Source: Hansschlegelia beijingensis (GTDB taxonomy: Bacteria; Pseudomonadota; Alphaproteobacteria; Rhizobiales; Methylopilaceae). Taken from it: DNA of 64,000 nucleotides. Where the stretch lies: positions 372,001-436,000 of the forward strand of contig NZ_JACIDR010000003.1 in NCBI RefSeq assembly GCF_014196425.1. The letters run 5' to 3'. Shown piece by piece: positions 4,868-62,432 of the stretch. The notes under the pieces were generated by a model. The model had not been told where the DNA came from, did not search any database, and was given only the letters and a program-made list of their open reading frames with translations. Both the position numbers and the translations under genes were made by a program. The stretch's first letter is position 1. Each line of letters begins with the position of its first letter.

Positions 4868-5340
4868 AAAAAATACCTTGACATCCCGCCCCCTCTATGC
4901 TCTCCTCTCATCACCTTCTCCCGCGCGGGAGGCGTGTCCGGACCGGCCGGCCATGTGGGGGAGGGGCGGCGCCTGCGGCGGGGATGACCGGATGTCCTCC
5001 GTCCCGGGACGGTCGGCACTGCGGCGGGTTGGGAGATGCGAGCGCCGAAAGGCGCGTCCGGTTCCCTTCTGCGACGACGCCGCCCCGCATTACGACGGGG
5101 ACGCGCTTGAGGCGCGGATGGCGCGGAACGCGCGAGGTTCTGGGCGGCCCCAAAGGCTTCCGCAGAACCCCTGCGCTTCGGGTTCCCGGCCGGCTTCGGC
5201 CAGGACCGTTCCAAGCCGGCAGGCGGTCCGCAGCGATCGTTAAGACGTCGCGCGCGGAGCGCCGGGCGGCCGGTTATCCGAACTACGGAACGAGCGGCGG
5301 CCCGACGCTCCGCGCCTTCCCGCTGTTTGACCAGGATTGG
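4868..5340 (-). repeat. Repeat family 1, copy A (terminus faces the caspase-like gene)
   Basis: Read on the minus strand it begins TCAAACAGCGGGAAGGCGCG and continues through GTCGTAATGCGGGGCGG and CCGCCGCAGGCGCCGC. It then has GGCCGGCCGGTCCGGACACG and ends GGGATGTCAAGGTATTTTTT. The same ordered blocks recur at 32221-32735 and 61991-62432, with a truncated copy at 33308-33441. Open frames through it are not conserved between copies because of indels, so I treat it as non-coding. It fills most of the gap between the caspase-like gene and the next gene. Confidence 0.75.
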
Positions 5341-5387
5341 ACGAGACCAAGCCGCGCCAGCGGCCGATGACGCGCGCCCGCGCTCTT

Positions 5388-5653
5388 CTCCCTCCCTCGC
5401 AGAGGGGAGGGTGGACGGGCGAAGCCCGGCCGGGTGGGGTGGGCTCAGAAGGAATCGCGCGAAACCTCGCCCGTCATGCCCGGCGCAGCCGGGTATCCAC
5501 GACTTGGCGGCGGTCCGCAGGCGAGGGAAGTCGTGGATGCCCGCAAGCGGGCATGACGGGCGCTGGGCGCTGCGCCCGAAGACCCCACCCGACCCCTCGC
5601 TGGCGCGAGGGGCCACCCTCCCCACCGCTTCGCGGCGAGGAGGGAGAGGGGCG
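5388..5653. repeat. Repeat family 2: compound nested palindrome, copy 1
   Basis: About 265 bp built as nested inverted repeats. Outer arms are CCCTCCCTCGC/GAGGGTGG against CCACCCTCC/GAGGAGGGAG. Middle arms are GCCGGGTGGGGT against ACCCCACCCGAC. The core is GTCATGCCCGG...TATCCACGACTT against AAGTCGTGGATGCCCGC...GGGCATGAC. A second full copy is at 43676-43932, and the core alone is at 32048-32146. No gene is seen here. Confidence 0.75.
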
Positions 5654-5731
5654 GCGGCGTTAAGGGGGGCGGGCGCCAATTCGTGAGACGGGGCGGATCG
5701 GGCGGAACCTCGCCTGCGCCGGCCCGTTACT

Positions 5732-7720
5732 GTGCCGGGCGAGGGAACACGCGGCGTGCAGCAATTGGTGGCGGAGCGGATTCGCAGGCCCGGCGAGGGT
5801 CCGCTGGTGGTGGCGGCGTGGTCGATCGTCGGCGCCGCGGTGGTGGGCGCGCTTTACATCGGGCGCGATCTGCTGATCCCGATCGCGCTCGCGCTGCTGC
5901 TGAGCTTCGTGCTGTCGCCGCTGGTCAGCCTCGCCAAGCGCGTGCGGATCCCGCGCAGCATCGCCGTGGTGGCGCTGGTCCTCATGGCGTTCGGGGTGAT
6001 CGTCGGCCTCGGCGCGGTGCTGGCCGGGCAGGTGGCGCAGCTCGCGGGCGATCTCCCGAAATACCAGTCGACGATGCGCGCCAAGGTGCAGTCGGTCGGC
6101 GAGATGATGGGCGGCGGCGCGACCCTCGACCGCGCCGCGGACCTGCTGCAGGACCTCGGCGAGGAGCTCGACCGGCCGAAGTCGTCCGGGCAGACCTTTC
6201 CGACGGACGGCCGCCCGGGCTCCGGCAAGCCGCAGGACCCCGTGCCGGTGCAGGTCCGGCAGCCGCCGCCGACGGCGGTCGAAAACATGCGGGCGGTGAT
6301 CGAGCCGCTGATCCATCCGCTGGCCACCACCGGCGTGATGATCATCTTCGTGATCTTCATTCTGCTGCAGCGCGAGGACATCCGGAACCGCTTCATGCGG
6401 CTCGCCGGCTCGCAGGACATCCAGCGCACCACGGCGGCGCTCGACGACGCGGCGCGGAGGCTGTCGCGGCTGCTGCTCACCCAGCTCGCGCTGAACTCCG
6501 CCTTCGGGCTGGTGATCGGCTTCGGGCTGGCGGCGATCGGGGTGCCGAGCGCGGCGCTGTGGGGCATCATGGCCGCGGTGCTGCGTTTCGTGCCCTATAT
6601 CGGCGCGATCATCGGGGCGCTGCTCCCGATGGCGCTCGCGGCCGCGGTCGATCCGGGCTGGAGCAGCTTCCTGCTCACTGCGGCGTTCTTCGCGGTCACC
6701 GAGTTCACGCTCGCCCATCTGATCGAGCCGATGGCGTTCGGCCGCAGCACCGGGCTTTCGCCGGTCGCCGTGGTGGTGTCGGCGACCTTCTGGACGGCGC
6801 TGTGGGGGCCGATCGGGTTGGTGCTCTCCACGCCGCTGACGATCTGCCTGGTGGTGCTGGGGCGGCACGTGCCGAGCCTGTCCTTCCTCGACACGCTGCT
6901 CGGCGACCGGCCGGCGCTCAGCCCGCCGGAGATCTTCTACCAGCGCATGCTCGCGCGCGACCCGATCGAGGCTTCCGAGAAGGCGCGCGAGGTGCTGCAG
7001 GAGCGCTCGCTCTCGGCCTATTACGAGGAGGTGGCGCTGCCCGGCCTGCTGCTCGCCCAGCGCGACGCCGAGCGCGGCGCGCTGCAGGCCGAGCGGCTCG
7101 AGGCGCTGCGCTCATCGGTGTCGGAGCTGATCGAGGATCTCGATTCCTTCGACGACACGGATCCCAAGGACGGCGAGGAGACCCTCGACCCGGAGGCGAT
7201 CGACGCCATCGAGCATGTCGAGACCGACGCAAGCGCGGCGGATCTCACGCCAGGCCCGCAGAGCGCGCCGCGGCCCGACCCGGCGTTCCGGGTGCGCTGC
7301 GTCGGCGCGCGCACGCCCGTCGAGGGCGCGGCGGCCGAGATCATGGCGCAGCTGCTCAACAAGCACGGTCTCGCGCCGCAGCTCGAGGACGACGACTTCC
7401 TGCTGACCAGCGGCGTGGTGGAGATGGAGGCCGCGGGCCCCTCGATCGTGTGCGTGGCGTTCCTGGACGCCGAGGAGGCCCATGTCCGGCTCGTCGTGCG
7501 GCGCGTGCGCCGGCGGCTGCCGAGCGCCTATGTGGTCGCGGCCTGCTGGACCTCCGACGAGCGCGAGCTGCCGGCGGACGACATTCGCCAGGCCGCCCGC
7601 GCGGACGCGGTGGCGCTCAGCCTGCGCGGCGTGGTCGAGCGCTGCCTCGACGAGGCGCGCCGCCGCTCCGAGACCAGGGCCGCCGCGACCCAGGAGGAGC
7701 GCACCGCCGTCTCGGCCTGA
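5732..7720 (+). CDS. AI-2E family transporter with long C-terminal cytoplasmic region
   Basis: 662 residues from the GTG at 5732; in-frame GTGs at 5756 and 5768 are alternative starts. Residues ~25-370 are the polytopic AI-2E/PerM exporter domain (PF01594), with paired N-terminal helices, a soluble loop and a C-terminal helix bundle including the [20 protein letters not shown] segment. Residues ~385-660 form an extra soluble part with the conserved stretch [18 protein letters not shown]. After an acidic linker comes a Rossmann-like half resembling B12-binding folds but without a DxHxxG motif. The substrate is unknown; the family name does not establish AI-2 export here. The gene follows the repeat block, so its promoter must lie within or just after the repeats. 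Confidence 0.85.
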
Positions 7721-7767
7721 CGCCGCGCCCCGGGGCGCCTATATGGGAGCCGGACACGGAGGCCGCG

Positions 7768-8172
<405 letters not shown>

Positions 8173-8184
8173 GGACGGGGCGGC

Positions 8185-9402
8185 TCAGTCGGTCGCGCCG
8201 CCCACATAGCTGACGCGGTAGATCGCGCCGTTGTGGTCGTCGGAGACCAGCAGCGAGCCGTCCCGCATCACCTCGACGTCGACGGGGCGGCCGACATACT
8301 CGTTGTCCTCGACGAAGCCGGTGAGGAACGGCTCGACCCAGACGACCTCCCGCCGGTCGTTGAGGAAGGCGACCGCCACGTCGGCGTATTTCTGCGACCG
8401 GTTCCACGGCCCGTGGCGCGCGATGAAGATCGCGTCCCGGTATTTTTCGGGGAACATGCCGCCCGTGTAGAACCGCATTCCGAGCGGCGCGGCGTGCGGC
8501 CCGAGCAGCGCGGCGGGGCTGACGAACTCGCCGCAGCTGCGGCCCTGGCCGAACTCGGGGTCGGTCATCAGGCCCGAATGGCAATAGGGGAAGCCGAAAT
8601 CCTGCCCCGCCCGGGTGACGTGGTTGAGCTCGTCGAGCGGCATGTCGTCGGAAATCCAGTCGCGCTGATTGTCGGTGAACCAGAGGTCGCCGGAGCGCGG
8701 ATCGAAATCGAAGCCGACCGAGTTCCGGACGCCCCTGGCGACCGTCTCGACATTGGAGCCGTCGAGATCCATGCGGAAGATGCGGGCGTGGCGCGGGTCC
8801 GGCTCGCACACATTGCAGGGCGCCCCCACCGGCACGTAGAGCTTGCCGTCCGGCCCGATCTTCAGAAACTTCCAGCCATGCGGGCTTTCGCCGGGGAACT
8901 TGTCATAGACGACGACCGGCTTCGGAGGCGCGTCAAGCCGGTCCTCGACGCCGTCATAGCGCAGGATCTCCTTGGCGTTCGCGACATAGAGCGCGCCGTT
9001 TCTGAACTCGATGCCGTTCGGCAGCGTCATGCCGGAGACGACGGTCTTCACCTCGCGTCGGCCGCCCTTGTCGACCACGGCGTAGACCTTGTTGGCGACG
9101 AACAGCGAGGACACGAACAGCGTGTCCCGCTCGCCCAGGCGCATCATGCGCGCGTCGAGGATGTCGCTCGCATAGGTCTCGACCTTGAACCCGGGCGGAA
9201 CCCGAAGCTTGGCGGTCGGCAGCGCCTCGGCCGGCGTCGGCACCGGAAAGGCCGAGACCGGCGCGAGCTTGAAGCCCTGGCGTCCCTTGGGCCCGCCGAG
9301 GGACCAGAACTCCTCCGTCTTCTCGGCGGCTGCCGCCGCCCCGCAGGTCAGCGCGACCAGCGCCAGCGTCAGGCGCAGCGCGTTCCGTCGCTGATATCGC
9401 AT
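8185..9402 (-). CDS. Sorbosone dehydrogenase-like secreted PQQ-type beta-propeller protein
   Basis: 405 residues. The N-terminal signal peptide (MRYQRRNALRLTLALVAL...AAAAA/E) points to the periplasm. The remainder is a six-bladed propeller of the soluble PQQ sugar dehydrogenase / L-sorbosone dehydrogenase family, with NGIEF, ESPHGW, RNSVGFDFDP, LWFTDN, HGPWNRS and RPVDVEVM...LVSDDHNG strands. Paired Cys in PCNVCEP are typical of the sorbosone branch. The start was chosen at ATG 9402, with GGAGA upstream, over a longer ORF lacking a plausible N-terminus. The substrate cannot be read from sequence. Divergent from the deacetylase gene across 143 bp. Confidence 0.85.
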   Translation of the reverse strand: MRYQRRNALRLTLALVALTCGAAAAAEKTEEFWSLGGPKGRQGFKLAPVSAFPVPTPAEALPTAKLRVPPGFKVETYASDILDARMMRLGERDTLFVSSLFVANKVYAVVDKGGRREVKTVVSGMTLPNGIEFRNGALYVANAKEILRYDGVEDRLDAPPKPVVVYDKFPGESPHGWKFLKIGPDGKLYVPVGAPCNVCEPDPRHARIFRMDLDGSNVETVARGVRNSVGFDFDPRSGDLWFTDNQRDWISDDMPLDELNHVTRAGQDFGFPYCHSGLMTDPEFGQGRSCGEFVSPAALLGPHAAPLGMRFYTGGMFPEKYRDAIFIARHGPWNRSQKYADVAVAFLNDRREVVWVEPFLTGFVEDNEYVGRPVDVEVMRDGSLLVSDDHNGAIYRVSYVGGATD

Positions 9403-9545
9403 GCAGTCTCCATGGCCGCTTCCCGGAGCGGCTCGGGCCAAAGCTAGGCGCGCCGGAGCCGCCCGCCAAGACGCCGTCTGGCGCGCCCTTGTTTCGCCGG
9501 AAAGCACGCGCTTTTCGTGCCGCGGAAGCAACGGCCGGAGCGACG

Positions 9546-10475
9546 ATGGCGGGACGTCTGGCGACACTTGCGGGCGCGGCGCTGCTCCTGGGCGCAGCAC
9601 CGGCGCGGGCGGTCGAGTTCGAGCCGCGGCTCACGATCGCGTCCCCGGACCCCGCCGTCCGGGAGGTGGCTCTCACCTTCGACGCCTGCTCCGGCGCCGT
9701 CGACCGCCGCATCCTGGACGCGCTGCTCGAGACGCGGGCCAAGGCGACGATCTTCGTCACGCAACGGTGGATCCGTCGGAACCCGGAGGCGCTTGCGACC
9801 CTCAAGGCGCACCCGGATCAGTTCGAGATCGAGAACCACGGCGCCCGCCATGTGCCGATCGTGACGGACGCGCGCAGCGTCTTCGGTCTAGCGGCCGCGG
9901 GCACGATCCAGGCTGTGCGGGCGGAGATCGGCGAGGGCGCGGCGGCGGTGGAGACCGCGACCGGCGCCCGCCCGAGGTGGTTCCGCGGCGCCACCGCGCG
10001 CTACAGCCGTGACGCGCTGGATGAGATTTCCGCGGAGGGATTCCGCGTCGCCGGGTTCTCGCTGAACGGCGACATGGGCGCTTCGCTGCCCGCCGCCGTC
10101 GCCGAGCGCCGCATTGCGGCCGCCCGATCGGGCGATGTCGTGATCGCGCACATCAATCAGCCGGCCCGCAGCTCGGGCGAGGGGGTCGCCGGCGCCATCC
10201 GCGCGCTCGCGGCGGCGGGCGTCAGGTTCGTGCGTCTTGAGGATGCGGCGATGAAGAGCGAGGACGGCCGCCCGATCCTACCGCCCAAGCGCGAAATCGA
10301 TCACGAGCTTCGCGTTGAGCGCCACGATGACCAGGGCGACAAGCCCGGCGGTGGCGGACATCCAGCGGGGAGCCACGAACTCTCCCATCTTGGCGCGGCT
10401 GGCGGTGAACCAGACCAGCGGAATGACCGCGAAGGGCAGCTGCAGACTCAGCACGACCTGGCTCAGCACAAGTAG
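9546..10475 (+). CDS. Secreted polysaccharide deacetylase, running into mntH antisense
   Basis: CE4/NodB-type carbohydrate esterase that removes N- or O-acetyl groups from an envelope or extracellular polysaccharide. ATG 9546 has GGAG upstream and begins a signal peptide ([22 protein letters not shown]). NodB motifs follow: [10 protein letters not shown] (metal-binding Asp), ENHGARHVP (the usual H-S/T-x-x-H replaced by H-G-A-R-H), and RPRWFRG. The expected fold ends near [10 protein letters not shown] at about 10250. The frame then continues ~70 codons into sequence antisense to mntH before a stop, and that tail has no family similarity. Confidence 0.82.
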
Positions 10476-11654
10476 CTGCGCCGTCCCGCTCTCGCCGTAG
10501 AACATCGTGACGCCGATCGCCGGGACGATGGCGATGGCGCGCGTGATCAGGCGGCGCAGCCAGGGCGAGAGCCGGATGCGCAGGAAACCTTCCATCACCA
10601 CCTGGCCGGAAAGCGTGGCGGTCACGGTGGAGTTCAGTCCGCAGCAGAGCAGGGCGACGCCGAAAGCGGTGGCGGCCAAACTGCCGCCGAGAAGCGGCCC
10701 GAGCAGAGTGTGGGCCTCACCGAGTTCGGCGACCTCGCCATGGCCGCTGTCATGAAAGGCGGCGGCCGCAAGCACGAGGATCGAGGCGTTCACCACGAAG
10801 GCGAACACGAGCGCGATCGTCGAATCCGTGACCGCATAGCGGATCGCCTCACGCTTGCCGGCCGCGTCGCGGCCATAGGCGCGGGTCTGCACCACCGAGG
10901 AGTGCAGGTAGAGATTGTGAGGCATGACGGTCGCGCCGACGATGCCGAGCGCGATGTAGAGCATCTCCGGGTTGGTCACGAGCTCCGTGGTCGGCGCGAG
11001 GCCGCGGATCACCGCGCCAAGATCGGGATGCGCCATCGCAAGCTGGATCGCGAAACAGCCGGCGATGACCATCAACAGGCCGATCACGAAAGCCTCGACC
11101 CAGCGAAAGCCCACCCGCTGAAGCCCGAGCACGAGAACGACGTCGAGCGCGGTCAGGATCACGCCGATCTCCAGCGGGATGCCGAACACGAGGGTGAGCC
11201 CGATGGCGGTGCCGATCACCTCGGCGAGGTCGGTGGCGCAGATCGCGGCCTCGGCCAGCATCCAGAGCGGGAAGGACACCGCCTTGGGAAATGCGTCCCG
11301 GCACGCCTGCGCCAGATCCCGTCCGGTCGCCACGCCGAGGCGGGCGCACAGCGCCTGCAGGAGCATCGCCATCAGGCTCGAGAGCGCCACGACGGCCATC
11401 AGCGCGTAGCCGAACTTGGAGCCGCCGGCGAGGGAGGTCGCCCAGTTGCCCGGATCCATGTAGCCGACGGCGACCAGATACCCGGGACCCACGAAGGCCA
11501 GCATCCGCCGAAGCGGGCTGCGGCCGCGCACCGACACGGAGGCGTTCACTTCCGCGAGCGAGGCGCTCCCCGGCGCTCCTCGCCAACCTGAGAAGGGTGT
11601 CGAACGCGCGGGCTCCCCCACGTCAGTCAAAGTCTCGGCTTCGCCTGTCTGCAT
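10278..11654 (-). CDS. mntH: Nramp-family divalent metal/proton symporter MntH
   Basis: 458-residue inner-membrane Mn2+ (and Fe2+) importer of the Nramp family with about eleven helices. The metal-site motif DPGN appears in [11 protein letters not shown] and the second metal-site motif in [11 protein letters not shown]. The first ~45 residues are a soluble tail, so a later start is possible. The 3' end overlaps the convergent deacetylase reading frame by 198 bp. A manganese-responsive regulator site would be expected upstream; a weak dyad is listed separately. Confidence 0.93.
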
Positions 11655-11690
11655 CGGGTTCCTGGCGCCAGCGCCTGATGGTCTGCCAGC

Positions 11691-11710
11691 TGCAAGTAGG
11701 TCGCAACTGC
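11691..11710 (-). promoter_or_regulatory. Weak dyad upstream of mntH, possible Mur/Fur-type operator
   Basis: TGCAAGTAGGTCGCAACTGC lies 36-56 bp upstream of the mntH start. It is an imperfect inverted repeat with the GCA...TGC ends and internal GCAA typical of rhizobial manganese-responsive (Mur) operators. Symmetry is poor (about half of positions), so this is a suggestion from position and base pattern only. Confidence 0.22.
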
Positions 11711-11851
11711 GTCGCCCGCCATGCGGCCGTGACGAGTCCGCACCCTGCGCGTCGCCCTTGTCACATGTGCCCCCGCGTGCAACGTCCTCCCGTCGCGGAA
11801 CGTTCGCGGTCGCGAAATGGTCCGCTCAACGCTGCGGGAGATGCGGCTGCG

Positions 11852-14542
<2,691 letters not shown>

Positions 14543-30235: not shown

Positions 30236-31888
30236 TCACCGGGCGAACTGGCGGTACTTAAGACGCTTGGGTTCGACCGCGTCCGGGCCGAGGCGGCGCT
30301 TCTTGTCTTCCTCGTAATCCTGGAAGTTGCCCTCGAACCACTCGACATGGCTGTCGCCCTCGAAGGCCAGCATGTGGGTGGCGATGCGGTCGAGGAACAT
30401 GCGGTCATGGCTGATGATCACGGCGCAGCCCGCATAGTCCTCGAGCGCCTCCTCGAGCGCCCGCAGCGTGTCGATGTCGAGATCGTTGGTCGGCTCGTCG
30501 AGCAGCAGGACGTTGGCGCCCGACTTCAGCATCTTGGCGAGATGCACGCGGTTGCGCTCGCCGCCCGAGAGGTCGCCGACCTTCTTCTGCTGGGCCGCGC
30601 CCTTGAAGTTGAAGGCCCCCACATAGGCGCGGGAGTTAACCTCGCGCTTGCCGAGATGGATCACGTCGGTGCCGCCGGAGATCTCCTCCCAGACGTTCTT
30701 GCTGGGGTCGAGGGAGTCGCGGCTCTGGTCGACATAGCCGAGATGCACCGTCTCGCCGATCTTGATCGTGCCGCTGTCGGGCTTGTCCTGGCCGGTGATC
30801 ATGCGGAACAGCGTCGTCTTGCCGGCGCCGTTCGGGCCGATGACGCCGACGATGCCGCCGGGCGGCAGCCGGAACGACAGGTCGTCGATCAGCAGCTTGT
30901 CGCCGAAACCCTTCGACAGGTGCTCGAACTCGACCACCGTGTTGCCGAGCCGCTCGGCGATCGGGATGACGATCTGCGCGGTGGTCGGGCCGGCCTCGGA
31001 GGCCTTGGCGACGAGCTCGTCATAGCGCTGGATGCGGGCCTTGTTCTTGGCCTGGCGCGCCTTCGGGCTGTTGCCCATCCACTCCTGCTCGCGCTTGAGG
31101 GTGCGCTGCAGGGCCTCCTCGACGCGGCCTTCCTGCTCCATCCGCTTCTGCTTCTGCACAAGCCACGAGGAGTAGTTGCCCTCGTAGGGAATGCCGCGGC
31201 CGCGGTCGATCTCGAGGATCCAGCCGGTGACGTTGTCGAGGAAGTAGCGGTCGTGGGTGACGATCAGGATCGCGCCCTTGTAGTTCCGCAGGTGGTTTTC
31301 GAGCCAGTTCACCGTCTCGGCGTCGAGATGGTTGGTGGGCTCGTCGAGCAGCAGCAGGTCGGGCTCCGACAGCAGCAGCTTGCAGAGCGCCACGCGGCGC
31401 TTCTCGCCGCCCGACAGCTTCTCGACGTTCCAGTCGTCCGGCGGGCAGCCGAGCGCCTCCATGGCGAGGTCGACCTTGGAGTCGAGGTCCCACAGGCCGA
31501 GCGCCTCGATGCGGTCCTGCAGCTCCGTCATCTCGTCGGCGGTCTCGTCGGAGTAGTTCATGGCGAGCTCGTTGTAGCGCTCGAGGATCGCGGTCTTCTC
31601 CGCGACGCCGTCCATGACGTTCTCCCGCACCGTCTTGTTCGGGTCGAGCTGCGGCTCCTGCGCCAGATAACCGATCTTGGCGCCCTTCGCGGCCCAGGCC
31701 TCGCCGGTGTACTCCTTGTCGATCCCCGCCATGATCTTGAGCAGGGTCGACTTGCCGGCGCCGTTCACGCCCAGGATGCCGATCTTGGCGTCCGGGTAGA
31801 AGCTGAGGTGGATGTTGTCGAGCGTCTTCTTGGGCCCGAAGGCCTTGGAGACGCCGGCCATGTGGTAGATGAATTCGCGCTGGGCCAT
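30236..31888 (-). CDS. ettA: Energy-dependent translational throttle protein EttA (ABC-F)
   Basis: Ribosome-bound ABC-F ATPase that gates the first peptide bond according to ADP/ATP ratio. 550 residues with two nucleotide-binding domains: Walker [10 protein letters not shown] and GPNGAGKTT, signatures LSGGEKRRV and LSGGERNRV, and Walker [13 protein letters not shown] and [12 protein letters not shown]. The EttA arm and linker ([14 protein letters not shown]) are present, and the protein ends KYRQFAR. No membrane domains. Start at ATG 31888 ([10 protein letters not shown]), matching the family. Confidence 0.96.
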
Positions 31889-32220
31889 GGGCTGGAAGAG
31901 CTCGCCTGGAAGTGCTCGCGCAAGCGCCGGTGGGCGCCGCGGCCGGATGTCGGAAGGGTCGCGCGCCTTGTAGCGCGCCCGGCCCGCGAGCGGCAAGGGC
32001 GGCGGGCGCCGCCCGGGCGGCGCAGGGCAGGGGGCGCGAACAACAAGCCGTCATGCCCGCGCCTTCCCGGGCGCCCACGACTTGGGAGCGGGCGCCGCCG
32101 TGGAAGCGAAGTCGTGGACGCCGGGCCTCGCGGCCGGGCATGACGGTCTCCGCTTCGGGCCCCCGGTTCGCCAGCGCGCGCGGAGGCGCCGCGCGAGGCG
32201 GTTGGATCATCACCCAGAAA
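31889..32220. other. Gene-free stretch between ettA and the repeat-flanked island
   Basis: High-GC non-coding sequence. It contains the ettA upstream region and the core palindrome of repeat family 2 (32048-32146, listed separately). A short spacer ending TTGGATCATCACCCAGAAA leads directly into repeat family 1 copy B. No convincing gene is visible on either strand. Confidence 0.6.
32048..32146. repeat. Core palindrome of repeat family 2, copy 2
   Basis: CCGTCATGCCCGCGCC...CCCACGACTT pairs with AAGTCGTGGACGCCGGG...GGGCATGACGG. It is the same core as at 5470-5560 and 43757-43850, without the outer CCCTCC/GGAGGG arms. As in copy 1, it sits just outside a family 1 repeat on the side away from the cargo. 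Confidence 0.75.
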
Positions 32221-32735
32221 TCAAACAGCGCAGGGAAGGCGCGGAACGCCGGGCCACCTGTCATGCCGTAGTTCAGCGGCGAACCGGTCGCCCGGCGTCC
32301 CGCGCGGCGGCGATTTGGCGACGGATGCGGAACCGCGCTCCGGTCGCGGGCGGCCCGTTCTCCCTTGCGGGGTCGGTCCCTTTGCGGGTTTTGGGCTCCG
32401 CGGCGTCCCTTGCGGGCCGCCGCCTCGCCCAAAACCCATCCCGCGCCTTAAGGCGCTCGACGGCGCGGCCCCGTCCTAGTGCGGGGCGGGCGGTCATCGC
32501 CCCGAAAGCCCAGGCGCGGACGCCTGGCCTGCCGAGGCCCGCAGCCGACGTCCCGGGACGGAAAGCTCCGGTGCTCCCCGCCGCAGGCGCCGCTCCTCCC
32601 CCGCATGGCCGGCCGGTCCGGACACGCCTCCCCGCACGGGGAAGGACGAGGGGAGTGGAGCATGGAAGGGGAGGGATGTCAAGGAATTTATTCTTAGACG
32701 CGACGCCAGCTAAGGACCGGGTCCGTTTCTGACCC
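32221..32735 (+). repeat. Repeat family 1, copy B (terminus faces the Kiwa island)
   Basis: Begins TCAAACAGCGCAGGGAAGGC and runs through GCGGGGTCGGTCCCTTTGCGG, CCGCGCCTTAAGGCGCTCGA, GTCCTAGTGCGGGGCGGGCG, CCGCCGCAGGCGCC and GGCCGGTCCGGACACGCCTC. It ends GGGATGTCAAGGAATTTATTC, followed by GTCCGTTTCTGACCC, which copy C also has. Long open frames through it are shadows. Confidence 0.78.
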
Positions 32736-33307: not shown

Positions 33308-33441
33308 GTCGCATGGCCGGCCGGTCCGGACACGCCTCCCCGCCCGGGGAAGGACGAAGGGAGTGGAGCACGAAGGGGAGGGATGGCAAGGAATTTGCTC
33401 TTATAAGAACGGCAGTGAAAGGGCGCGTCCGTTTCTGATCC
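33308..33441 (+). repeat. Repeat family 1, truncated copy C (terminus faces kwaA)
   Basis: Only the last ~135 bp of the element. It starts at GCATGGCCGGCCGGTCCGGA and runs to GGCAAGGAATTTGCTCTTAT and GTCCGTTTCTGATCC. It is near-identical to 32603-32735 and in the same orientation, about 710 bp downstream of copy B. Confidence 0.78.
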
Positions 33442-33859
33442 AAAGCTGTCATTGACGAGACCAGTTTCCGCACGCGCCTAACTGTCCCTCGGCGCTGGTC
33501 AAGTAAGCGTCGGCGTCACTTCCGTCCGACTCCGCCTGACGAGGGAGACGGGAAGAGAATCTGTCTCGGCGAGCCCGGTGTCCTCGCAACCGCCGCCATC
33601 TCGGACAGCGAATGGCAAGTGAATTGCTGGTCCAGTCCGTCGGCAACGGCGTTTTCGCCAGCTTGACGCCATCTGATCGCATCGCTGCGCGCAGTCCGGC
33701 TGACGTCGCCTCTCGTCCCGTGAGGGAATTGAGCTTCGAGCTTCGTCCACGAGCGCCCTTGAACAAATAAGGAACATTGAAACGGGCCAGCGTTTGAGAC
33801 AAAGTGAGCACCACGACGGAAGCGCGAGGCGTTTCACCGGATTGAGAAGCAGTGGGCGC
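33442..33859. other. Upstream region of Kiwa, no clear gene
   Basis: About 420 bp between repeat copy C and kwaA. A 52-codon open frame (33612-33770) and antisense frames are present, without recognisable family features. The kwaA promoter should lie here, but I cannot point to a convincing -35/-10 pair. Confidence 0.4.
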
Positions 33860-34459
33860 ATGCCGGTCAGGCTCTGGGCTGCCATCGTTGTCTTCATCGG
33901 CTCGTACCTGCCGCTCGGCCTAATCCTCCTTGTGCAGGACGTCGATCTTACCAGTAGGAATTTCCTGTGCTGCGTTGAGCAGGGTGGGTTTCTGCCCAGT
34001 TGCCTCGCGCCGCTGAAGCATCCGGTCGTCGCCCTTGGATTCGTCGCCGTTTCGGCGATCTGCTTCGCGCTGACGGCCGGTTTTCTTTCCAAATGCAGAA
34101 CGAAGGCCAAGACATCTATCGTCATCCGTGAAGCAGTCTACAAGCCGAATGATATGATAAGCTACGTATTTCCGTATTTGGTCACGTTTATGACTGTCAC
34201 CTTTGACGATATTCCTAGAATTCTTGGTTTCACGATTTTCATGGTCTGGCTGTTTGTTATCACATACAAGGCTGGGCGGATATTTGTGAACCCCCTCCTG
34301 ATCGTATTTGATTGGCGGCTCTACGAAGTAACCTACTCTTTTGCTGGGGATGAGCAGCGTTTTTCGAGCTTGGCACTTGCCAAGGCGGGTAACGTCGCTG
34401 AAGGCTCGTGGCTCAGCATGCAGGTCGAAGATCTGCTGATCATTCGGGCGGTGGAGTGA
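33860..34459 (+). CDS. kwaA: KwaA, membrane subunit of Kiwa anti-phage system
   Basis: 199 residues with four predicted membrane helices (about 6-26, 52-75, 100-120, 124-144). A soluble C-terminal part follows, starting FVNPLLIVFDWRLYEVTYSF, which resembles the conserved NPLL...Y.LYEV segment of KwaA. In the known Kiwa system KwaA is the inner-membrane partner linked to infection sensing. Start set at ATG 33860, just before the first helix. Ten bases separate it from kwaB. The family was assigned mainly by size, topology, that motif and the adjacent DUF4868 gene. GC is lower than the genome average. Confidence 0.82.
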   Translation: MPVRLWAAIVVFIGSYLPLGLILLVQDVDLTSRNFLCCVEQGGFLPSCLAPLKHPVVALGFVAVSAICFALTAGFLSKCRTKAKTSIVIREAVYKPNDMISYVFPYLVTFMTVTFDDIPRILGFTIFMVWLFVITYKAGRIFVNPLLIVFDWRLYEVTYSFAGDEQRFSSLALAKAGNVAEGSWLSMQVEDLLIIRAVE

Positions 34460-34469
34460 GGCTCGAGAC

Positions 34470-35393
34470 ATGCCAGATCTGGCGAAGCTGAAGGCGTTCG
34501 ACATCGATGGCGCCAGCCTGTCGCTTTGGGTGTTCAAGAAGAGGGTCCCCAAAGGCGCGGCACCGATCTACACCGGCCGTTGGGCCGAAATCGGCGATGA
34601 CCTGACCACGGAGATAAAGCGGGTTACGGCCACCTCGATCGCACGGATCGAGGAGGTCATCGAATATTCCCATCTGGCCCAGAACCACGAGACCAGCGTC
34701 CTAACGATTTCCACCGCCGAGACGCATGCGGGCCTGCTCAAGGACAAGGCCGCGGCGCAGCAGGAAAACAAGCGTGTCCGCAACTCCGCCGACCTCGAAA
34801 ACATTGAGTTCTACGCCTTTCGCTTCGTCAAGGACGAGACGGTTCTCTACGCCATCCGGAAGGCCGATCAGAGTTGGAAGACCAGGAAGCGGCGCGACAT
34901 AGTCTCAGTAGTATTGCAGAATCACGAGTTGGTCCTTGATAGAACGCCGAGCTTCAATATTTCGAAGGCCGTTGATTTCTTCGTCTATGACGAAGCGATT
35001 TTCATCGCGGCTAAGCAGAATTTCGAGTCAGTGCTGGCCTACAAGGCCGGTCATCAGGACGACTTCGTTGAGATGCAGGCGGAGGATGCGTTCAAGGGTG
35101 CGTTCGTCGATCTTGAGGAGATCGTCAAGTTCGTCGGCGACAACAAGATCCAGCTGAGACGGATTTCAGCGATTCGTCAGAAGGGCCACTACAAAGACCG
35201 GGTGTTTATGGATAATCTGCGGCGTCTTTACAAAGAAAATGGATTGAACATTGTGTTCGACGGCTCGGGTAAGATTGTTCCGTCAGAGGAGACCTGCAGG
35301 GACATCTTCCAAGCTTTGCTGGACCACAGGCTAGGCTCGGATTTCTCCAGAAGGAAGTACGACGTCCCCGACACCTCGTCGGTCACGGTCTGA
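34470..35393 (+). CDS. kwaB: KwaB, DUF4868 subunit of Kiwa anti-phage system
   Basis: 307 residues, the usual KwaB length. The C-terminal half carries DUF4868 hallmarks: KAVDFFVYDEAIFIAAKQNFE, DDFVEMQAEDAFKGAFVDLE, FVGDNKIQLRRISAIRQKGHY and NGLNIVFDGSGKIVPSEET. It closes DHRLGSDF...YDVPDTSSV. In studied Kiwa systems KwaB is the cytoplasmic DNA-associated effector that works with KwaA at the membrane. Second gene of the pair, same strand, probably one transcript. Confidence 0.88.
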   Translation: MPDLAKLKAFDIDGASLSLWVFKKRVPKGAAPIYTGRWAEIGDDLTTEIKRVTATSIARIEEVIEYSHLAQNHETSVLTISTAETHAGLLKDKAAAQQENKRVRNSADLENIEFYAFRFVKDETVLYAIRKADQSWKTRKRRDIVSVVLQNHELVLDRTPSFNISKAVDFFVYDEAIFIAAKQNFESVLAYKAGHQDDFVEMQAEDAFKGAFVDLEEIVKFVGDNKIQLRRISAIRQKGHYKDRVFMDNLRRLYKENGLNIVFDGSGKIVPSEETCRDIFQALLDHRLGSDFSRRKYDVPDTSSVTV

Positions 35394-42416: not shown

Positions 42417-42535
42417 CAAGACCCCGGGCGGGACGGGTGGCACGTCACCGCGAACCGGAGGTCTCACCGCAGACGCCTCTCATGCGCCCGCGGTTCGCCC
42501 ACCATCGGTGCACCCCGCCCGATGCGTTCGCGTGT

Positions 42536-42716
42536 GACCACACGAATGACGGCAGGTCTCCTGGCTTGCGGGTCGTAGCTCGCTCCGTCGCCTTCCCAGA
42601 CCGCGTGGGTCCAGTGGCCGATGACGAAGTCACTCGCCGCTCACAGTAGCGGGGGCTGCCGCGGCATGAGGTCCGAAAACCATCACCGCGTTCCCTTTTG
42701 ATCCCCGGGGGGAACC
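42536..42716 (-). ncRNA. Cobalamin riboswitch upstream of btuB
   Basis: On the minus strand the leader shows the conserved order of the class: GGTGATGGTTTTCGGACCTCATG, then GCAGCCCCCGCTACTGTGA, GGCCACTG, GGGAAGG and AAGCCAGGAGACCTGCCG near the 3' end. The last is the hallmark B12-box element. It lies ~120 bases before the btuB ATG, so adenosylcobalamin would repress the receptor. CcdA is divergent on the other side. Confidence 0.92.
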
Positions 42717-42932
42717 GTCGCGGCGGACGCTATGGCGGGACTGTGGCGGGAGTCAATGCGACAAGCTCGTGAGCCGGGAGCGTGGCGCGTGACCCGGCCG
42801 TCCCGGGCGCTTGGCCGCGCGCCTGAGGGGCTCAGCCTCATCACGTCCCGTTGCGCCGCCTTCCATCGCCGCGCGCGCCGCGCTAAGCCGCCCGCGCGCG
42901 CCGCGTCATCAGCCCGGCGCGAGGAGCGGCGC

Positions 42933-50565: not shown

Positions 50566-50636
50566 GGCGGCCGCAGCCCGTCATTGTGCGGACGCGCGCG
50601 GCGGCCTATCTCGGGCTCTGCACCCGGAGGGCGCCC

Positions 50637-53235: not shown

Positions 53236-53247
53236 GGCCGCGGCGGC

Positions 53248-54230: not shown

Positions 54231-54465
54231 CCGGCTGCGCTCGCGTCAGGGCCGCCGGTGCGGCGGGCGTCCTGCCATACGCACGAGAGCCCGGGACGGA
54301 TCCGTCCGGCGGCTCGGGTCGCTGGCAGCAGCTGCCCGCGCATGCTGCTAAAGCACTGAAATCACAAGGCTATTACCCGCTTTTCGATTGTCATGAAAGT
54401 GAGTCGCAGAACACACTGACGTTGCGGCGCTTCGGCAACCGCGCCGCGAGGCGATGGAGCATGCG

Positions 54466-54771
54466 ATGAGCGAGCGTGAGTTCCCCAAGTCGAGCGTCCA
54501 GCGGGCGAGTGCGGATTTCGAACTTCAGATGCAGGGTTACGGGCTGATCACCGCGGAGATCCTCTACCGCATGCCCGATCACCCCAAGCTGCTGCAGTCC
54601 TTCCTCTGGCAGGACTACGACCATTCCCCCGAGTTTCCGGTCCTGCGGCGCTTTCTGGACTGGTGGCGAAAGGAGCTCGAGGGCGTCCTGCACTCGGTCA
54701 GGGTGGCGCACAAGGCGCTCATCGGTCCGGCGGACTTCCAGCCGGTGAGGGCCGAGTTCCGCCTGAACTGA
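54466..54771 (+). CDS. usg: Usg family protein
   Basis: 101 residues, the conserved alphaproteobacterial Usg protein: LQMQGYGLITAEILYRMPDH, LQSFLWQDYDHSPEFP, and FLDWWRKELEGVLHSVRVAH. Historic naming links it to tryptophan genes, but its role is not established. ATG 54466 has GGAG upstream, preferred over ATG 54454. Its 3' end overlaps the convergent GH3 gene by 53 bp. Confidence 0.9.
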   Translation: MSEREFPKSSVQRASADFELQMQGYGLITAEILYRMPDHPKLLQSFLWQDYDHSPEFPVLRRFLDWWRKELEGVLHSVRVAHKALIGPADFQPVRAEFRLN

Positions 54772-56995: not shown

Positions 56996-57135
56996 GATCG
57001 GCGGCTCTTGAGACGCGGAGGCAGGGCGACGCGGCCATCTAGGGCGAGACGGCGGGAGGGCAGCCTTCACGTTCACGTTGCGCGCGGCGAGCCGGAGCGG
57101 TAACGCGCTGAGAGGCCTGACCGGGAGCCCTTCAG

Positions 57136-58047
57136 ATGACGTCCGCGCGACCCAGCATCGGTTTCCTTGGCATAGGCCTGATGGGCGCGCCGATGGCGCG
57201 GCGCCTGCTGGGCGCCGGCTTCGAGGTGGTGGCCTGGAGCCGCACGGCCGACAAGGCGCGGGCGCTGGCGCAGGACGGCGCGCGCGCCGCAAGCTCGGCG
57301 GCCGAGGCCGCGGCGGCCTGCGACGTGCTGATCGCCATGCTGGCCGACGGACCCGCGGTCGCCGACACGCTGTTCGGGGCCGGGGGCGCGGCAGCGGCGC
57401 TGAAGCCCGGCGGCCTCGTGATCGACATGAGCTCGATTCCGCCGTCGCTCGCCCGTGACCACGCCGCGCGCCTCGCGGGGCAGGGCGTCGCCCATCTCGA
57501 CGCGCCGGTGTCGGGCGGCACGAGGGGCGCGGCGGCCGGCGCGCTGGCGATCATGGTCGGCGGCGATCCCGAGGCGTTCGAGCGGGCCCGGCTGGTTTTC
57601 GCGCCGCTCGGCCGCGCGATCCGCGTCGGCCCGGCCGGCGCCGGGCAGCTCGCCAAGCTCGCCAACCAGGTGATCGTCGGCGTGACGATCGGCGCGGTCT
57701 CGGAGGCGCTGCTGCTGGCCGCCGCCGGCGGCGCCGATCCGGCCGCCGTGCGCGAGGCGATCCGCGGCGGTTTCGCGGAGAGCCGCATCCTCGAGGAGCA
57801 CGGCCGGCGCATGCTCGAGCGCGACTTCCGGCCGGGCGGCATGGTCGGCACCCAGATCAAGGATCTCGACACCGCGCTCGCCGCCGCCGCGGAGGCCGGC
57901 GTGACGCTGCCGCTGTCGCAGGACGTCCGCGACCGCTTCGTCGAGCTGCGCGACAGGTTGGGCGCCGGCGGCTACGATCACTCGGCGCTGCTGCTGCAGC
58001 TCGAGGCGATGGCGGGCGCCCGGCTGACCGACATCGCGCCCGGCTGA
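57136..58047 (+). CDS. Beta-hydroxyacid dehydrogenase (GarR/3-hydroxyisobutyrate type)
   Basis: 303 residues. NAD(P) site IGFLGIGLMGAPMARRLLGAG, substrate-binding signature LDAPVSGGTRGAAAGALAIMVGG, and catalytic Lys in GQLAKLANQVIVGVTIGAVSEAL. The family includes tartronate-semialdehyde reductase and 3-hydroxyisobutyrate dehydrogenase. The sequence does not settle which substrate is used. Divergent from bglX. Confidence 0.92.
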   Translation: MTSARPSIGFLGIGLMGAPMARRLLGAGFEVVAWSRTADKARALAQDGARAASSAAEAAAACDVLIAMLADGPAVADTLFGAGGAAAALKPGGLVIDMSSIPPSLARDHAARLAGQGVAHLDAPVSGGTRGAAAGALAIMVGGDPEAFERARLVFAPLGRAIRVGPAGAGQLAKLANQVIVGVTIGAVSEALLLAAAGGADPAAVREAIRGGFAESRILEEHGRRMLERDFRPGGMVGTQIKDLDTALAAAAEAGVTLPLSQDVRDRFVELRDRLGAGGYDHSALLLQLEAMAGARLTDIAPG

Positions 58048-58098
58048 CCCGGCGCCCCGCCTCCTTCCGTCCGCTACCGTCCCTCCACCGGTGCTCCG

Positions 58099-58455
58099 AT
58101 GCCGAACCTGTCGCCTGCGCTCGCGCCGCTCGTGCTTCTGCTGTGCTCGAACGTCTTCATGACGTTCGCCTGGTACGGCCACCTCAAGTTCAAGGCTGCG
58201 CCGCTGTGGGCGGCGATCCTGGTCAGCTGGGGCATCGCGCTGATCGAATACTGCTTCGCCGTGCCGGCGAACCGGATCGGCAGCGCGGTCTATTCGGGCG
58301 CCGAGCTCAAGGCGATGCAGGAGGTGATCACGCTCAGCGTGTTCGCGGTGTTCTCCGTCGTCTATCTGGGCGAGCGGCTGACGGTGAACCACGTCGTCGG
58401 CTTCGCGCTCATCGCGGCCGGGGCCTTCTTCGTCTTCAAGGGCCCGCTGCGCTGA
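58099..58455 (+). CDS. DMT family (DUF486) membrane protein
   Basis: 118 residues with four helices. LLCSNVFMTFAWYGHLKFK, WGIALIEYCFAVPANRIG, LKAMQEVITLSVFAVFSVVYLGE and FALIAAGAFFVFKGP match DUF486, a half-size DMT-type family thought to pair in the membrane. Function unknown. 51 bp after the dehydrogenase, same strand. Confidence 0.9.
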   Translation: MPNLSPALAPLVLLLCSNVFMTFAWYGHLKFKAAPLWAAILVSWGIALIEYCFAVPANRIGSAVYSGAELKAMQEVITLSVFAVFSVVYLGERLTVNHVVGFALIAAGAFFVFKGPLR

Positions 58456-59733
<1,278 letters not shown>

Positions 59734-59803
59734 CGCGGTCGAACGAAACCCGCGCCTGAAGCGTTCGGTCATCGCGGGGACGACACCCGGGAGACCCACG
59801 ACC

Positions 59804-60334
59804 ATGCACGCACTGATCAGGGCCGGCCTCGTCGCGGCCGGCTGCCTCGCAGCCGGCGCGGCGCTCGCGGCCGACGCCAGCCACCCGTCCGTCACGATCT
59901 CCAAGCAGCCGCGCTACTACCAGCCGGTGTCGGGCTACCAGACCGGCACGCTGACCTGCGAGACGCCGGGCACGATCGGCTATGTGGTCGGCTCGCGGCG
60001 CGAGCTGTCCTGCATCTACCGGCCGAGCGCCGGCCGCAACGCGGTCGACCTCTATGTCGGCCACATCAACAAGGTCGGCGTGGACGTCGGCGCCACCGGG
60101 CCGGGCGTGCTCGCCTGGGCGGTGCTGGCGCATTCCAAGGACCTCGGGCCGGGCGATCTGGCCGGCAAGTATCTGGGCGCCTCGGCGAGCGCCACGGCGC
60201 TGATCGGCGTCGGCGCGAACGTCCTGGTCGGCGGCTCGGACACCACCGTCTCGCTGCAGCCGATCAGCCTCGAGGGCAGCACCGGCATCGCGGTCGCGGC
60301 CGGCCTGTCGTCGCTGACGCTCGATCCGATCTGA
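59804..60334 (+). CDS. DUF992 exported protein
   Basis: 176 residues. Signal peptide ends near AAGAALA. The mature region has TGTLTCETPGTIGYVVGSRRELSCIYRP, the DUF992 core with two Cys, and a glycine-rich end VGVGANVLVGGSDTTVSLQPISL. Periplasmic or outer-membrane-associated, unknown function, typical of Rhizobiales. Confidence 0.92.
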   Translation: MHALIRAGLVAAGCLAAGAALAADASHPSVTISKQPRYYQPVSGYQTGTLTCETPGTIGYVVGSRRELSCIYRPSAGRNAVDLYVGHINKVGVDVGATGPGVLAWAVLAHSKDLGPGDLAGKYLGASASATALIGVGANVLVGGSDTTVSLQPISLEGSTGIAVAAGLSSLTLDPI

Positions 60335-60442
60335 CGCCGCCCGCGCTCGCGGGCTCGTGAAGACGCGCTGCGGCCGGAGGCGTAACCTCCGGCCGTCGTC
60401 GTTCGTAGATCGTCGCAGCGTATGCCTGCCGCGGAGACCATC

Positions 60443-61432
60443 ATGCTCATCCGACGCGTTCCGTCCTGGGCGATCCCCGAATCCGGGGCGACGCCCGAGC
60501 ATGTCTGGCTGAACCGCCGCAGCTTCATCGCGGCGGCTGGCCTCGCCGGCGCGGCGCTTGCGGCCTCGCCCGCGAGCGCGTTCTTCGGCTTCGGCGAGAA
60601 GAAGGCCGCAGCCCCCCAGCCGCCGGACCCCTCCGCCGGGCTCTACCCGGTGAAGCGCAACCCGGCCTATGTGCTCGACCGGCCGGTGACGCCGGAAGCC
60701 TACAATCTCGGCTACAACAACTATTACGAGTTCAACACCTCGAAGAGCGTCGCCGAGGACGCCGCCGCGCTGCCGATCCGGCCCTGGACCATCAAGGTCG
60801 GCGGCATGGTCGAGAAGCCGTTCGAGGTCGGCATCGACGACCTGCTGAAGAAGCTGCCGCCCGAAGAGCGGCTCTACCGGCACCGCTGCGTCGAGGCGTG
60901 GTCGATGGCGCTGCCCTGGTCGGGCATCCCGCTCAAGGACTTCGTCGCGATGGCGAGGCCGCTCGGCTCGGCCAAATACGTGGTGATGAAGACCTTCCTC
61001 AACCCCGACGTCGCGCCCGGCCAGGCGAGCCCGCTGTTCGACTGGCCCTACACCGAGGGGCTGACCATGGCGGAGGCCACCAACGACCTCGCCTTTCTGG
61101 CCACCGGCGCCTATGGCAAGCCGCTCGCCCGCCAGATGGGCGCGCCGATCCGCCTCGCCGTGCCGTGGAAATACGGCTTCAAGTCCGTCAAGGGCATCGT
61201 CAGCTTCGACTTCACCGACAAGCGCCCCAAGACGCTGTGGGCGGTCGCCGGCCCCGGCGAATACGGTTTTTGGGCCAATGTGAACCCGGAGGTGCCGCAC
61301 CCGCGCTGGAGCCAGGCCAGCGAGCGCGTGCTCGGCACCAACGAGCGGCGGCCGACCCTCCTGTTCAACGGCTACGCCGAACAGGTCGCCGGGCTCTACA
61401 AATGGCTCGGCAACGAAGAGCTGTACCGCTGA
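60443..61432 (+). CDS. msrP: Protein-methionine-sulfoxide reductase, molybdopterin subunit MsrP
   Basis: 329 residues. Twin-arginine signal NRRSFIAAAGLAGAALAASP (RR at 25-26). Molybdenum-ligand Cys149 in YRHRCVEAWSM. Family segments are PVTPEAYNLGYNNYYEF, VPWKYGFKSVKGIV and YGFWANVNPEVPHPRWSQA. Repairs oxidised periplasmic methionine. The usual haem partner msrQ is not adjacent. ATG 60443 follows GCGGAGACC. Confidence 0.95.
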   Translation: MLIRRVPSWAIPESGATPEHVWLNRRSFIAAAGLAGAALAASPASAFFGFGEKKAAAPQPPDPSAGLYPVKRNPAYVLDRPVTPEAYNLGYNNYYEFNTSKSVAEDAAALPIRPWTIKVGGMVEKPFEVGIDDLLKKLPPEERLYRHRCVEAWSMALPWSGIPLKDFVAMARPLGSAKYVVMKTFLNPDVAPGQASPLFDWPYTEGLTMAEATNDLAFLATGAYGKPLARQMGAPIRLAVPWKYGFKSVKGIVSFDFTDKRPKTLWAVAGPGEYGFWANVNPEVPHPRWSQASERVLGTNERRPTLLFNGYAEQVAGLYKWLGNEELYR

Positions 61433-61677
61433 GCCCTGCGCCGCGCCGCGCTCTTGCGGCCCCGTCGCGGAACTGCGGCGGGCGGCGGCGGGGCCTCCGC
61501 CTCGCCTGACCTCACGCCCTCCCGCAGGCTGCGGCCGAGCGCGTCGAAATCCACCCGGTCGCGCTGCTCGGCGAGGCACGCGCAGCCGAGATCGCCCTGG
61601 CAGCGGCCGGCCCTCCGGCAGCCGGCCGACAGGCAGGCGCGCCACAGCTCATAGGCGTCCGAGAGCTTCTTGCGCAC
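61396..61677 (-). CDS. Cys-rich small protein, possibly 3' half of a frameshifted gene
   Basis: From GTG 61677, the 93-residue frame reads VRKKLSDAYELWRACLSAGC then RRAGRCQGDLGCACL. This resembles a Cys-rich motif seen in small Rhizobiales proteins of unknown role. The sequence upstream stays open in this frame with poor composition. A neighbouring frame has a plausible start at 61901 (MALVPQSVWPRKAAYVAARR...), so a one-base shift may have split one gene. The 3' end overlaps msrP by 37 bp. Confidence 0.4.
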   Translation of the reverse strand: MRKKLSDAYELWRACLSAGCRRAGRCQGDLGCACLAEQRDRVDFDALGRSLREGVRSGEAEAPPPPAAVPRRGRKSAARRRAQRYSSSLPSHL

Positions 61678-61990
61678 CGCGAGCCCTTCCGGCGGCGGCG
61701 CCGGCAGGCCCCTCCGGCGCGCAGGCCCCGCGGGCGGGCAGGCGCGGGCGCGCAAGGGGCGGGCGCGGCGCGGCCATAGGCGGGCGGCCCGCGCTCCTCC
61801 TCCGGCGGCGAAGGCGGCACGGCGGGCGCGGCCGGCTGGGCTCGCCGCGCGGCCACATAGGCGGCCTTTCGCGGCCAGACGGATTGCGGAACGAGCGCCA
61901 CCGGGACCTCCTTCTGAAAACGGCGCGGGCGCGCGCACGAGCGTCGGCGTCTCCCGCGGGGCGAGGCCGCGCGTGAGCCGGATGGGGAGG

Positions 61991-62432
61991 CGCAGGGCGC
62001 CGGGCCACCGCATCTGACATTTCAATGCCGGTCGCCCGGCGCCCCACGCGCGGCGGTTTCGCGACGGCCGGGGGGATCGCGCTCCGGTCGCGGGCGGCCC
62101 GCAGCCCCTTGCGGGGTCGGTCCCTTTGCGGCCCCGGACCGGGGCTCCCGAAGAAGCCCGAACCCGAAAGGCCATCCCGCGCCTTAAGGCGCTCGAAGGC
62201 GCGGCCCCGTCCTAGTGCGGGGCGGGCGATCGCGTCTCGACCGGACGAGGGAAGAAAAACCTCAGCCGGAGAGCCCAGGCCGACGTCCCGAGCCGCGAAG
62301 GTCCGGCCTCCGCGCCGCAGGCGCCGCCCTCACATCCCGCGCGAACGGCCGGTCCGGACGCGCCTCCCCGCGGGAGAAGGTCCTTTGAACATGCACGGGG
62401 GGAGGGGAGGTGTCAAGGAAAAAAAACCTATA
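61991..62432 (+). repeat. Repeat family 1, copy D (terminus faces the STAND-like gene)
   Basis: Begins CGCAGGGCGCCGGGCCACCG. It shares GCGGGGTCGGTCCCTTTGCGG, CCGCGCCTTAAGGCGCTCGA, GTCCTAGTGCGGGGCGGGCG, CCGCAGGCGCCGCC and GGCCGGTCCGGACGCGCCTC with copy B. It ends GGGGAGGTGTCAAGGAAAAA. The low-GC cargo begins immediately after. No gene within. Confidence 0.78.

Follow-up and report, generated by a model that had tools for sequence, protein, structure and literature searches.

The 64-kb stretch of the Hansschlegelia beijingensis genome analysed here, hereafter called the window, carries four copies of a non-coding repeat lying near low-GC genes, some of which resemble known defence genes. All four copies listed in an original prediction made from the window were located by profile search, and their ordered blocks proved collinear in the alignment. 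Copy 1 is full (4863..5320, + strand, nhmmer 264 bits, confirmed in the alignment), as are copy 2 (32234..32697, − strand, 340 bits) and copy 4 (61985..62432, − strand, 333 bits). Copy 3 (33310..33405, − strand, 54.7 bits) is partial and retains only the promoter end described below (model positions 2-96); its likeness to copy 2 extends upstream to ~33441, so that it and the flank of copy 2 form a direct repeat. All strands given here refer to the RNA that we assign to the repeat and are opposite to those first named. The TCAAGG end ascribed to every copy was found in three of them, the partial third copy reading GCAAGG.

The low-GC DNA, which we refer to as cargo, comprises in the window a caspase-like gene (3340..4866, +; Pfam Peptidase_C14, 3.3e-14; GC 0.48), kwaA (33794..34459, +; PADLOC KwaA, 1.4e-57) and kwaB (34470..35393, +; PADLOC KwaB, 3.2e-117), and an nSTAND NTPase gene that leaves the window (62471..64000, −; nSTAND_NTPase4, 1.1e-6; PADLOC PDC-S60, 3.5e-7). 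The same end of the repeat had been said to face such cargo in each case. This held on the caspase-like, Kiwa and nSTAND sides, with the qualification that copy 2 meets DNA of intermediate GC first: the order at 32-34 kb is full copy, ~0.6 kb of intermediate GC, partial copy, Kiwa. On the opposite side lie high-GC genes: an AI-2E family transporter gene (5732..7720, +; Pfam, 4.8e-40; present in 13/18 genomes of the family), an ABC ATPase gene (30236-31996) and a molybdopterin oxidoreductase gene (60422-61432). Palindromic GTCATGCCC/GGGCATGAC repeats also sit just outside the elements, at 5475-5560 and 32050-32140.

Comparison of copies indicated that the repeat is a putative structured RNA gene with its own promoter, on the strand opposite to the one first considered. 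Full copies are 397-514 bp long, and in most of them the first feature is an A/T-rich box (TAGGAA-N-TTCC type), after which comes TTGACA. Of 35 diverse copies, 28 have TTGACA as the −35 box, and 34 have a hexamer with a final T at a spacing of 17 nt; both copies of G131, a genome from another family of the order, read TTGACA-N17-CTATAT. In copy 1, the −35 box TTGACA was read from the sequence at 4878..4883 (+) and the −10 hexamer, 17 nt past it and with the conserved final T, at 4901..4906 (+). This −35 box is the former TCAAGG end, which would be a promoter directed away from the cargo. Downstream of it, the RNA is predicted to form a long-range helix that closes the structure, a number of hairpins and, at the end, one strong hairpin. 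RNAalifold on the 35 diverse copies returned 60 pairs, 23 of them with double-sided changes. In a recount of 58 of these pairs, 96.6% of cells were paired and both-sided changes occurred in 22 pairs (179 cells). None of 500 shuffled controls reached the observed value on any of five measures, a test in which kinship among the sequences can alone lift them above shuffles. Controls in which the structure was slid along the alignment gave at most 54.9% paired cells vs 96.6%, a comparison that favours the structure since the latter came from the same alignment. G-U cells outnumbered A-C cells by 237 to 17, indicating that the RNA strand is the promoter-first one. Covarying helices beyond controls and a promoter of its own are features of a structured non-coding RNA gene, and the repeat appears to have both. 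Searches against Rfam 15 matched no family at gathering level, either on the element of the window or at six loci of other genera; at E-value settings, the only matches were below threshold and unrelated. Thus, the repeat is more than the border sequence first envisaged, being a predicted promoter plus a covarying RNA.

The element is widespread. In its own genome (G000) it occupies eight loci, at 161, 377, 404/405 and 434 kb of contig C3, 66 kb of C6, 468 and 215 kb of C2, and 114-117 kb of C7. It was present in 13/13 genomes of the genus and 16/18 genomes of the family, with 1 to 30 matches per family genome. Under stricter filters, it was detected in 22/249 genomes and 9/111 genera of a sample of the order, and in 15/41 genomes of the genus of G131; the genus of G032 had it in 3/5 genomes. 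Other families, including Methylobacterium, also carry it, and an exact-pattern search matched Hansschlegelia quercus, H. zhihuaiae and a Methylopila metagenome-assembled genome. One genome, G006, has undergone a recent burst of near-identical copies (L070-L080, L117-L120), which have common mosaic palindromic repeats upstream (11 aligned). In a tree of 46 full copies (out of 58, with 12 from the burst omitted), grouping was by genome rather than by locus (16 label changes vs 32.3 on shuffling, 0/200 shuffles as low), a pattern that fits homogenisation or spread inside genomes. Contigs of the drafts G004, G005, G014 and G016 often stop at the element, so copy numbers in drafts are likely underestimated. 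A phage or plasmid origin was considered and dropped: blastn of the own-genome copy gave no phage or plasmid match, an exact 30-base pattern of the element had no match in viral contigs, and the G032 copy had none in a plasmid collection, where one G131 copy matched a single record, from Methylobacterium bullatum, at 96%.

The element has a polarity. We took the lowest GC of any 500-bp segment between 20 and 2020 bp on each side and called it low below 0.57. Outside the G006 burst there were 89 copies (five partial or duplicate ones omitted), and 79 had both flanks readable. Low-GC DNA lay on the promoter side only in 36 of these, on the other side only in 1, on both in 2 and on neither in 40 (exact paired test on 36:1, p=5.5e-10). 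Copies of different genomes linked by a flank match of at least 300 bp were then grouped, which gave 51 loci; with one copy drawn per locus (2000 draws), the median was 17 (13-21) to 1 (p=1.4e-4). New loci from two further genera, both already represented in the first set, were scored over ~1.46 kb upstream and ~1.2 kb downstream. After skipping 5 of 25 at contig ends, 7 of the remaining 20 had low-GC DNA on the promoter side only and 0 on the other side only (p=0.016). Three of the 20 (L299, L305, L306) have no recognisable TTGAC start, and one of these, L306 (GC 0.56), counts among the seven positives. Low-GC open reading frames (ORFs) were likewise distributed, with 50/164 on the promoter side vs 1/151 on the other in the first set, and 33/114 vs 7/105 in the second. 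The original expectation that low-GC DNA would concentrate at one end was therefore borne out, at 36:1 by copy, 17:1 by locus and 7:0 in new loci. In 464 kb of the element's own contig, 4 of 7 islands with GC<0.57 adjoin promoter ends, and 4/5 elements have an island there vs 0.10 of 5 by random placement. As for other landmarks in these 464 kb, 11 clusters of palindromic repeats were present, and 0/9 of those away from elements lay within 700 bp of an island, as against 2/8 tRNAs.

Comparison of orthologous sites showed that the cargo turns over. Locus A lies 3' of an ETF-QO gene (Pfam), present in 12/13 genomes of the genus. In all 12, unrelated and mostly low-GC DNA begins at the stop codon of this gene, the cargo measuring ~1-4 kb. 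Even G001, G007 and G008, which are closely related, carry cargos that have no DNA similarity to one another. In these three, the cargo sits between the ETF-QO gene and a convergent gene, Z, whose predicted end is within 5 bp of where similarity returns, and the element lies past Z. Gene Z likewise precedes the element in G004, and in G000 the element is found between cargo and Z. At locus B, the site of the caspase-like gene of the window, cargo occurs beside the same upstream genes in G000, G001, G005, G007, G008 and G011; one of them, U2 (2142..3107, +), is matched by similar DNA at the equivalent position of G001, G005, G007 and G008. Cargo and element are both present in G000, G001 and G005, and G003 and G004 have the element without cargo. 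In G007 and G008, similarity to G001 resumes directly past the partial element of G001. In G011, the two sides of locus B are on different contigs (L273, L276), each near a partial element, as if rearranged through recombination between copies. Shared core flanks with differing cargo across genomes are what is seen at core defence hotspots, and these loci would qualify on that count. Since cargo and element are found apart at orthologous loci, they do not form one unit. Thus, of the possibilities first raised, a repeat-marked hotspot with fixed polarity was upheld (36:1 among 79 copies, 17:1 per locus, with defence-like cargo). A non-autonomous gene-moving element was not, given that cargo and element are separable and that neither a general target duplication nor a common far end was seen.

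Cargo genes were often of defence type. At 1e-5, PADLOC matched 129 families among 50 low-GC promoter-side ORFs and 14 families among 96 (of 151) ORFs on the other side; these are counts of families, not of ORFs, and the control was not GC-matched. The best 25 of the 129 families include LmuA/B/C, KwaA/B, HEC-03A/B, PDC-M55A, NsnB and reverse transcriptase (RT), and L108 has a match to ThsA of Thoeris; Lamassu-like and Thoeris-like genes were thus found in addition to Kiwa- and RT-like ones. Enrichment in defence genes, another attribute of core defence hotspots, is thereby indicated at the level of sequence matches. Pfam added MazG_C, Nmad2, ABC-3C components, SocA_Panacea, SIR2_2, HSDR_N, RiboL-PSP HEPN and DpnII-MboI. 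In other families of the order, cargo included an HD-CE gene with a HATPase domain (G131) and a C5 methylase plus HEPN (G032). Within the family of the window's genome, another genus had SIR2 combined with STAND (G014) and DUF5677 (G017). The caspase-like gene and the genes of L107, L110 and L098 had no PADLOC match at 1e-5. In the own genome, locus A holds a low-GC cluster of four genes (L025:5091-8030) whose domains include MazG C-terminal and uracil-DNA-glycosylase-like ones; it may be a defence operon not yet described.

These cargo genes raised the question of a functional tie, wherein the RNA would regulate, restrain or insulate defence genes, or shield the gene beyond from them, so that insertion is unbiased and selection retains the cargo. 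Many defence genes are toxic when misexpressed, cargo often matches defence genes, the RNA is found in several families of the order, and polarity tracks the RNA gene while the A/T box is dispensable; all this speaks for such a tie. On the other hand, 41/79 copies have no promoter-side cargo, G003, G007 and G008 keep cargo though no RNA gene was detected beside it, the strand of the cargo relative to the RNA is mixed, and we saw no feature common to the cargo genes. We regard this explanation as unlikely, if worth keeping in mind.

We also looked for traces of how the DNA had entered. In L085 (G012), an IS1595-type transposon with inverted ends lies inside the A/T box and is flanked by an 8-bp duplication, AATTAATT. 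This IS1595/ISXO2-like transposon (L085:1755-3890) carries a low-GC passenger gene of 206 aa without Pfam match. Target duplications, which had been suggested as something to look for, and att repeats were sought around the cargo by position matrix, local alignment and comparison of the 8-bp box (the last in all copies but 12 with a deviant −35). The hits were the duplication at L085, tandem or split element copies, and two weak look-alikes of the promoter end (L083, L028). The matrix scan gave no other second promoter end on the far side of the cargo. The L083 look-alike (G012) lies 0.7 kb upstream near low-GC DNA and scores 18.4, true promoter ends scoring 20.3 or more. No common motif was seen at ten distal junctions of locus A. 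Remnants of ISXO2-type ends were rejected as a general explanation, the commonest flank 8-mers being palindromic repeats and the A/T box, and the motif AAAGTG occurred in only 3 proximal flanks (L108, L176, L182). The CAAG/CTTG beside the cargo recalls the ends of IS91/ISCR-like elements (ori/ter, Y1 transposase), presumably as a resemblance only. With regard to integron cassettes (attC sites, IntI), there was no integrase among the Pfam matches listed for cargo, in which one IS1595 transposase was the sole mobility gene. Cargo bounded by terminal inverted repeats and a target duplication, in the manner of a non-autonomous transposon or miniature inverted-repeat element, was seen at L085 alone, where the IS1595 transposase gene is also present. 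A single copy has cargo inside the element: on contig 7 of G000 (L027:6146-8933), an insert of 2.6 kb, with an ORF of 567 aa, interrupts the element between model positions 71 and 339.

Could cargo and RNA gene nonetheless form a one-ended mobile unit, with a fixed RNA end that a trans-acting recombinase recognises, perhaps with guidance, and a sloppy far end? One end is indeed conserved and the far end is not. Copy number runs from 1 to about 30 per genome with the recent G006 burst, and the distribution is patchy in the genus of G131 (15/41, under the stricter filters). Moreover, copy 3 (33.3 kb), a half copy, and the split L027 resemble recombination products, and the look-alike 0.7 kb upstream in L083, though weak (18.4), also counts in its favour. 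Several observations run counter to it: different species share element positions while the cargo differs, cargo and element occur separately, the matrix scan gave no second promoter end on the far side beyond the cases listed above, and the IS1595 transposase is the only mobility gene among the listed matches. We therefore consider a mobile unit of this type rather improbable.

With one clear insertion at L085, no general duplication and a dispensable A/T box, the data are best described by a polar hotspot that receives DNA by occasional transposition or illegitimate insertion and exchanges it by recombination between its flanks. We propose, as a tentative reading to which we would give slightly less than an even chance, that the element is a multicopy structured non-coding RNA gene and that acquired genes collect, in a polar hotspot, in the DNA upstream of its promoter. 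What sequence comparison documents here is a predicted promoter, a covarying RNA, low-GC and often defence-type cargo almost exclusively on the promoter side, and cargo that differs between close species at one locus whose two flanks persist; the entry step and the cause of the polarity are our inference. Foreign DNA would enter in or near the stretch upstream of the promoter, by transposition, as in the one IS1595-type case, or by illegitimate recombination. Because the RNA would be transcribed, this upstream side may be open and negatively supercoiled. Recombination of homologous sequence, in the upstream core gene on one side and in the RNA gene or conserved DNA beyond it on the other, would then exchange or remove cargo; given the likeness of copies within a genome, the RNA gene may act as a common arm for recombination. 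The only role we would suggest for the RNA itself is that of a boundary acting in cis. A bolder version, in which the RNA family, dispersed over the order, is a polar landing pad in cis, its transcription or an action of the RNA on the DNA upstream of it steering incoming DNA to the 5' side and so offering several marked, safe, integrase-free slots for rapid exchange of single defence genes, seems doubtful to us.

A number of observations weigh against the polar hotspot. Homologous recombination alone does not account for polarity. The promoter-side 2 kb are free of low-GC DNA in 41/79 copies, in partial agreement with what the original prediction had named as evidence against itself, namely copies beside ordinary core genes, and the 15 recent burst copies of G006 are almost devoid of low-GC cargo. 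The converse case it had named, cargo without the repeat, was also met in part: at locus A of G003, cargo is present and no element was found within 12 kb, and at locus B of G007 and G008 cargo occurs without a detectable element. At locus A of G001, G004, G007 and G008, gene Z separates the two. Four copies (L174, L178, L187, L193) have cargo and no A/T box upstream of the −35, and no tested copy other than L085 has a box duplication with matching borders. The fold of a single copy barely beats shuffled sequence (z −1.36). Copies are non-independent, the flank-linked groups of locus A and locus B accounting for 15 and 5 of the 79, GC serves as a proxy for foreign DNA, and the genome sample was not chosen by us. 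Lastly, in cargo-free copies, the neighbouring gene has its 5' end toward the element in 29/41 cases downstream vs 16/45 upstream (Fisher p=0.0013), so that the downstream side may be partly constrained; these counts, like the gap sizes below, rest on heuristic ORF calls.

Several of these points would suit a passive origin, in which cargo and RNA genes settle in shared, permissive gaps between core genes, downstream constraint producing the asymmetry. They are the cargo without element in G003, the cargo lying before gene Z rather than beside the element in four genomes, the uneven neighbour strand in cargo-free copies, and the non-independence of copies. Yet, cargo-free copies have similar gaps to the next core gene on the two sides (186 bp upstream, 201 bp downstream; p=0.39), and in cargo-bearing copies the neighbours are evenly oriented (20/38 and 19/38), for which reasons we judged gap or neighbour constraint insufficient as the sole cause of polarity. 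Besides, 12/41 downstream sides are free, so a passive origin would still predict more than 1 downstream case. Nor would it account for the excess over random placement on the own contig (4/5 elements vs 0.10 expected), for the palindromic repeats away from elements never being near an island (0/9), or for the recurrence of polarity in new loci of another genus. We hold a purely passive origin to be quite improbable.

Defence hotspots beside non-coding RNA genes are already known, as are hotspots poor in mobile genetic elements (MGEs) that are exchanged through core flanks. The closest known system is the pair of core defence hotspots of Pseudomonas aeruginosa, cDHS1 and cDHS2, which adjoin a proline tRNA and ssrA. 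There, cDHS1 regions span 1-224 kb with various mobile elements, and the authors suggest landing via diverse mobile elements and exchange by recombination (PMC10250203). The sites described here resemble them in having fixed core flanks, high-turnover defence cargo, a non-coding RNA gene in the flank and no single class of mobile element. They differ in that a single RNA family without Rfam match, at many loci in one genome, takes the place of a tRNA or tmRNA per hotspot, and in that the cargo is small (~1-4 kb at locus A) and on the promoter side of the RNA. The tRNA or tmRNA landmark with an integrase is likewise lacking here, judging from a tRNA/tmRNA scan of the window and the Pfam matches listed for cargo: there is no tRNA or tmRNA within the window, and at other loci, where tRNAs were not searched for, one turned up in L187. 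MGE-poor hotspots of horizontal gene transfer exchange their cargo by recombination at flanking core genes (PMC5635113); the likeness lies in cargo swapped between conserved flanks with few integrases, and the difference in a common polar non-coding landmark, of which the relevant part of that source gives no description.

Dispersed repeats such as RIME and REP are, like the element, intergenic, multicopy and mixed with palindromes. In contrast to them, the element has a promoter whose spacing is fixed and an RNA fold in which compensatory changes occur. As for IS1595/ISXO2 transposons with passenger genes (Pfam DDE_Tnp_IS1595), L085 with its low-GC passenger is the one likeness; unlike it, the other tested copies lack such a duplication. 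Nothing on this RNA was found in the open-licence literature, and as far as that literature shows, what is new is the RNA family, its use at many loci in one genome, the small size of the cargo, and a polarity toward the 5' side that holds in more than one genus. The element would be a large structured RNA without an Rfam family. Because polarity follows one 400-nt element, the acquisition of cargo by integrase-free hotspots becomes testable. As a landmark, it consists of a searchable RNA model with an orientation and predicts sites of small defence-gene cargo in this order; accordingly, undescribed low-GC genes beside it are candidate anti-phage genes. Finally, Rfam placed a Cobalamin riboswitch elsewhere in the window (42534-42734, −, 125.7 bits).

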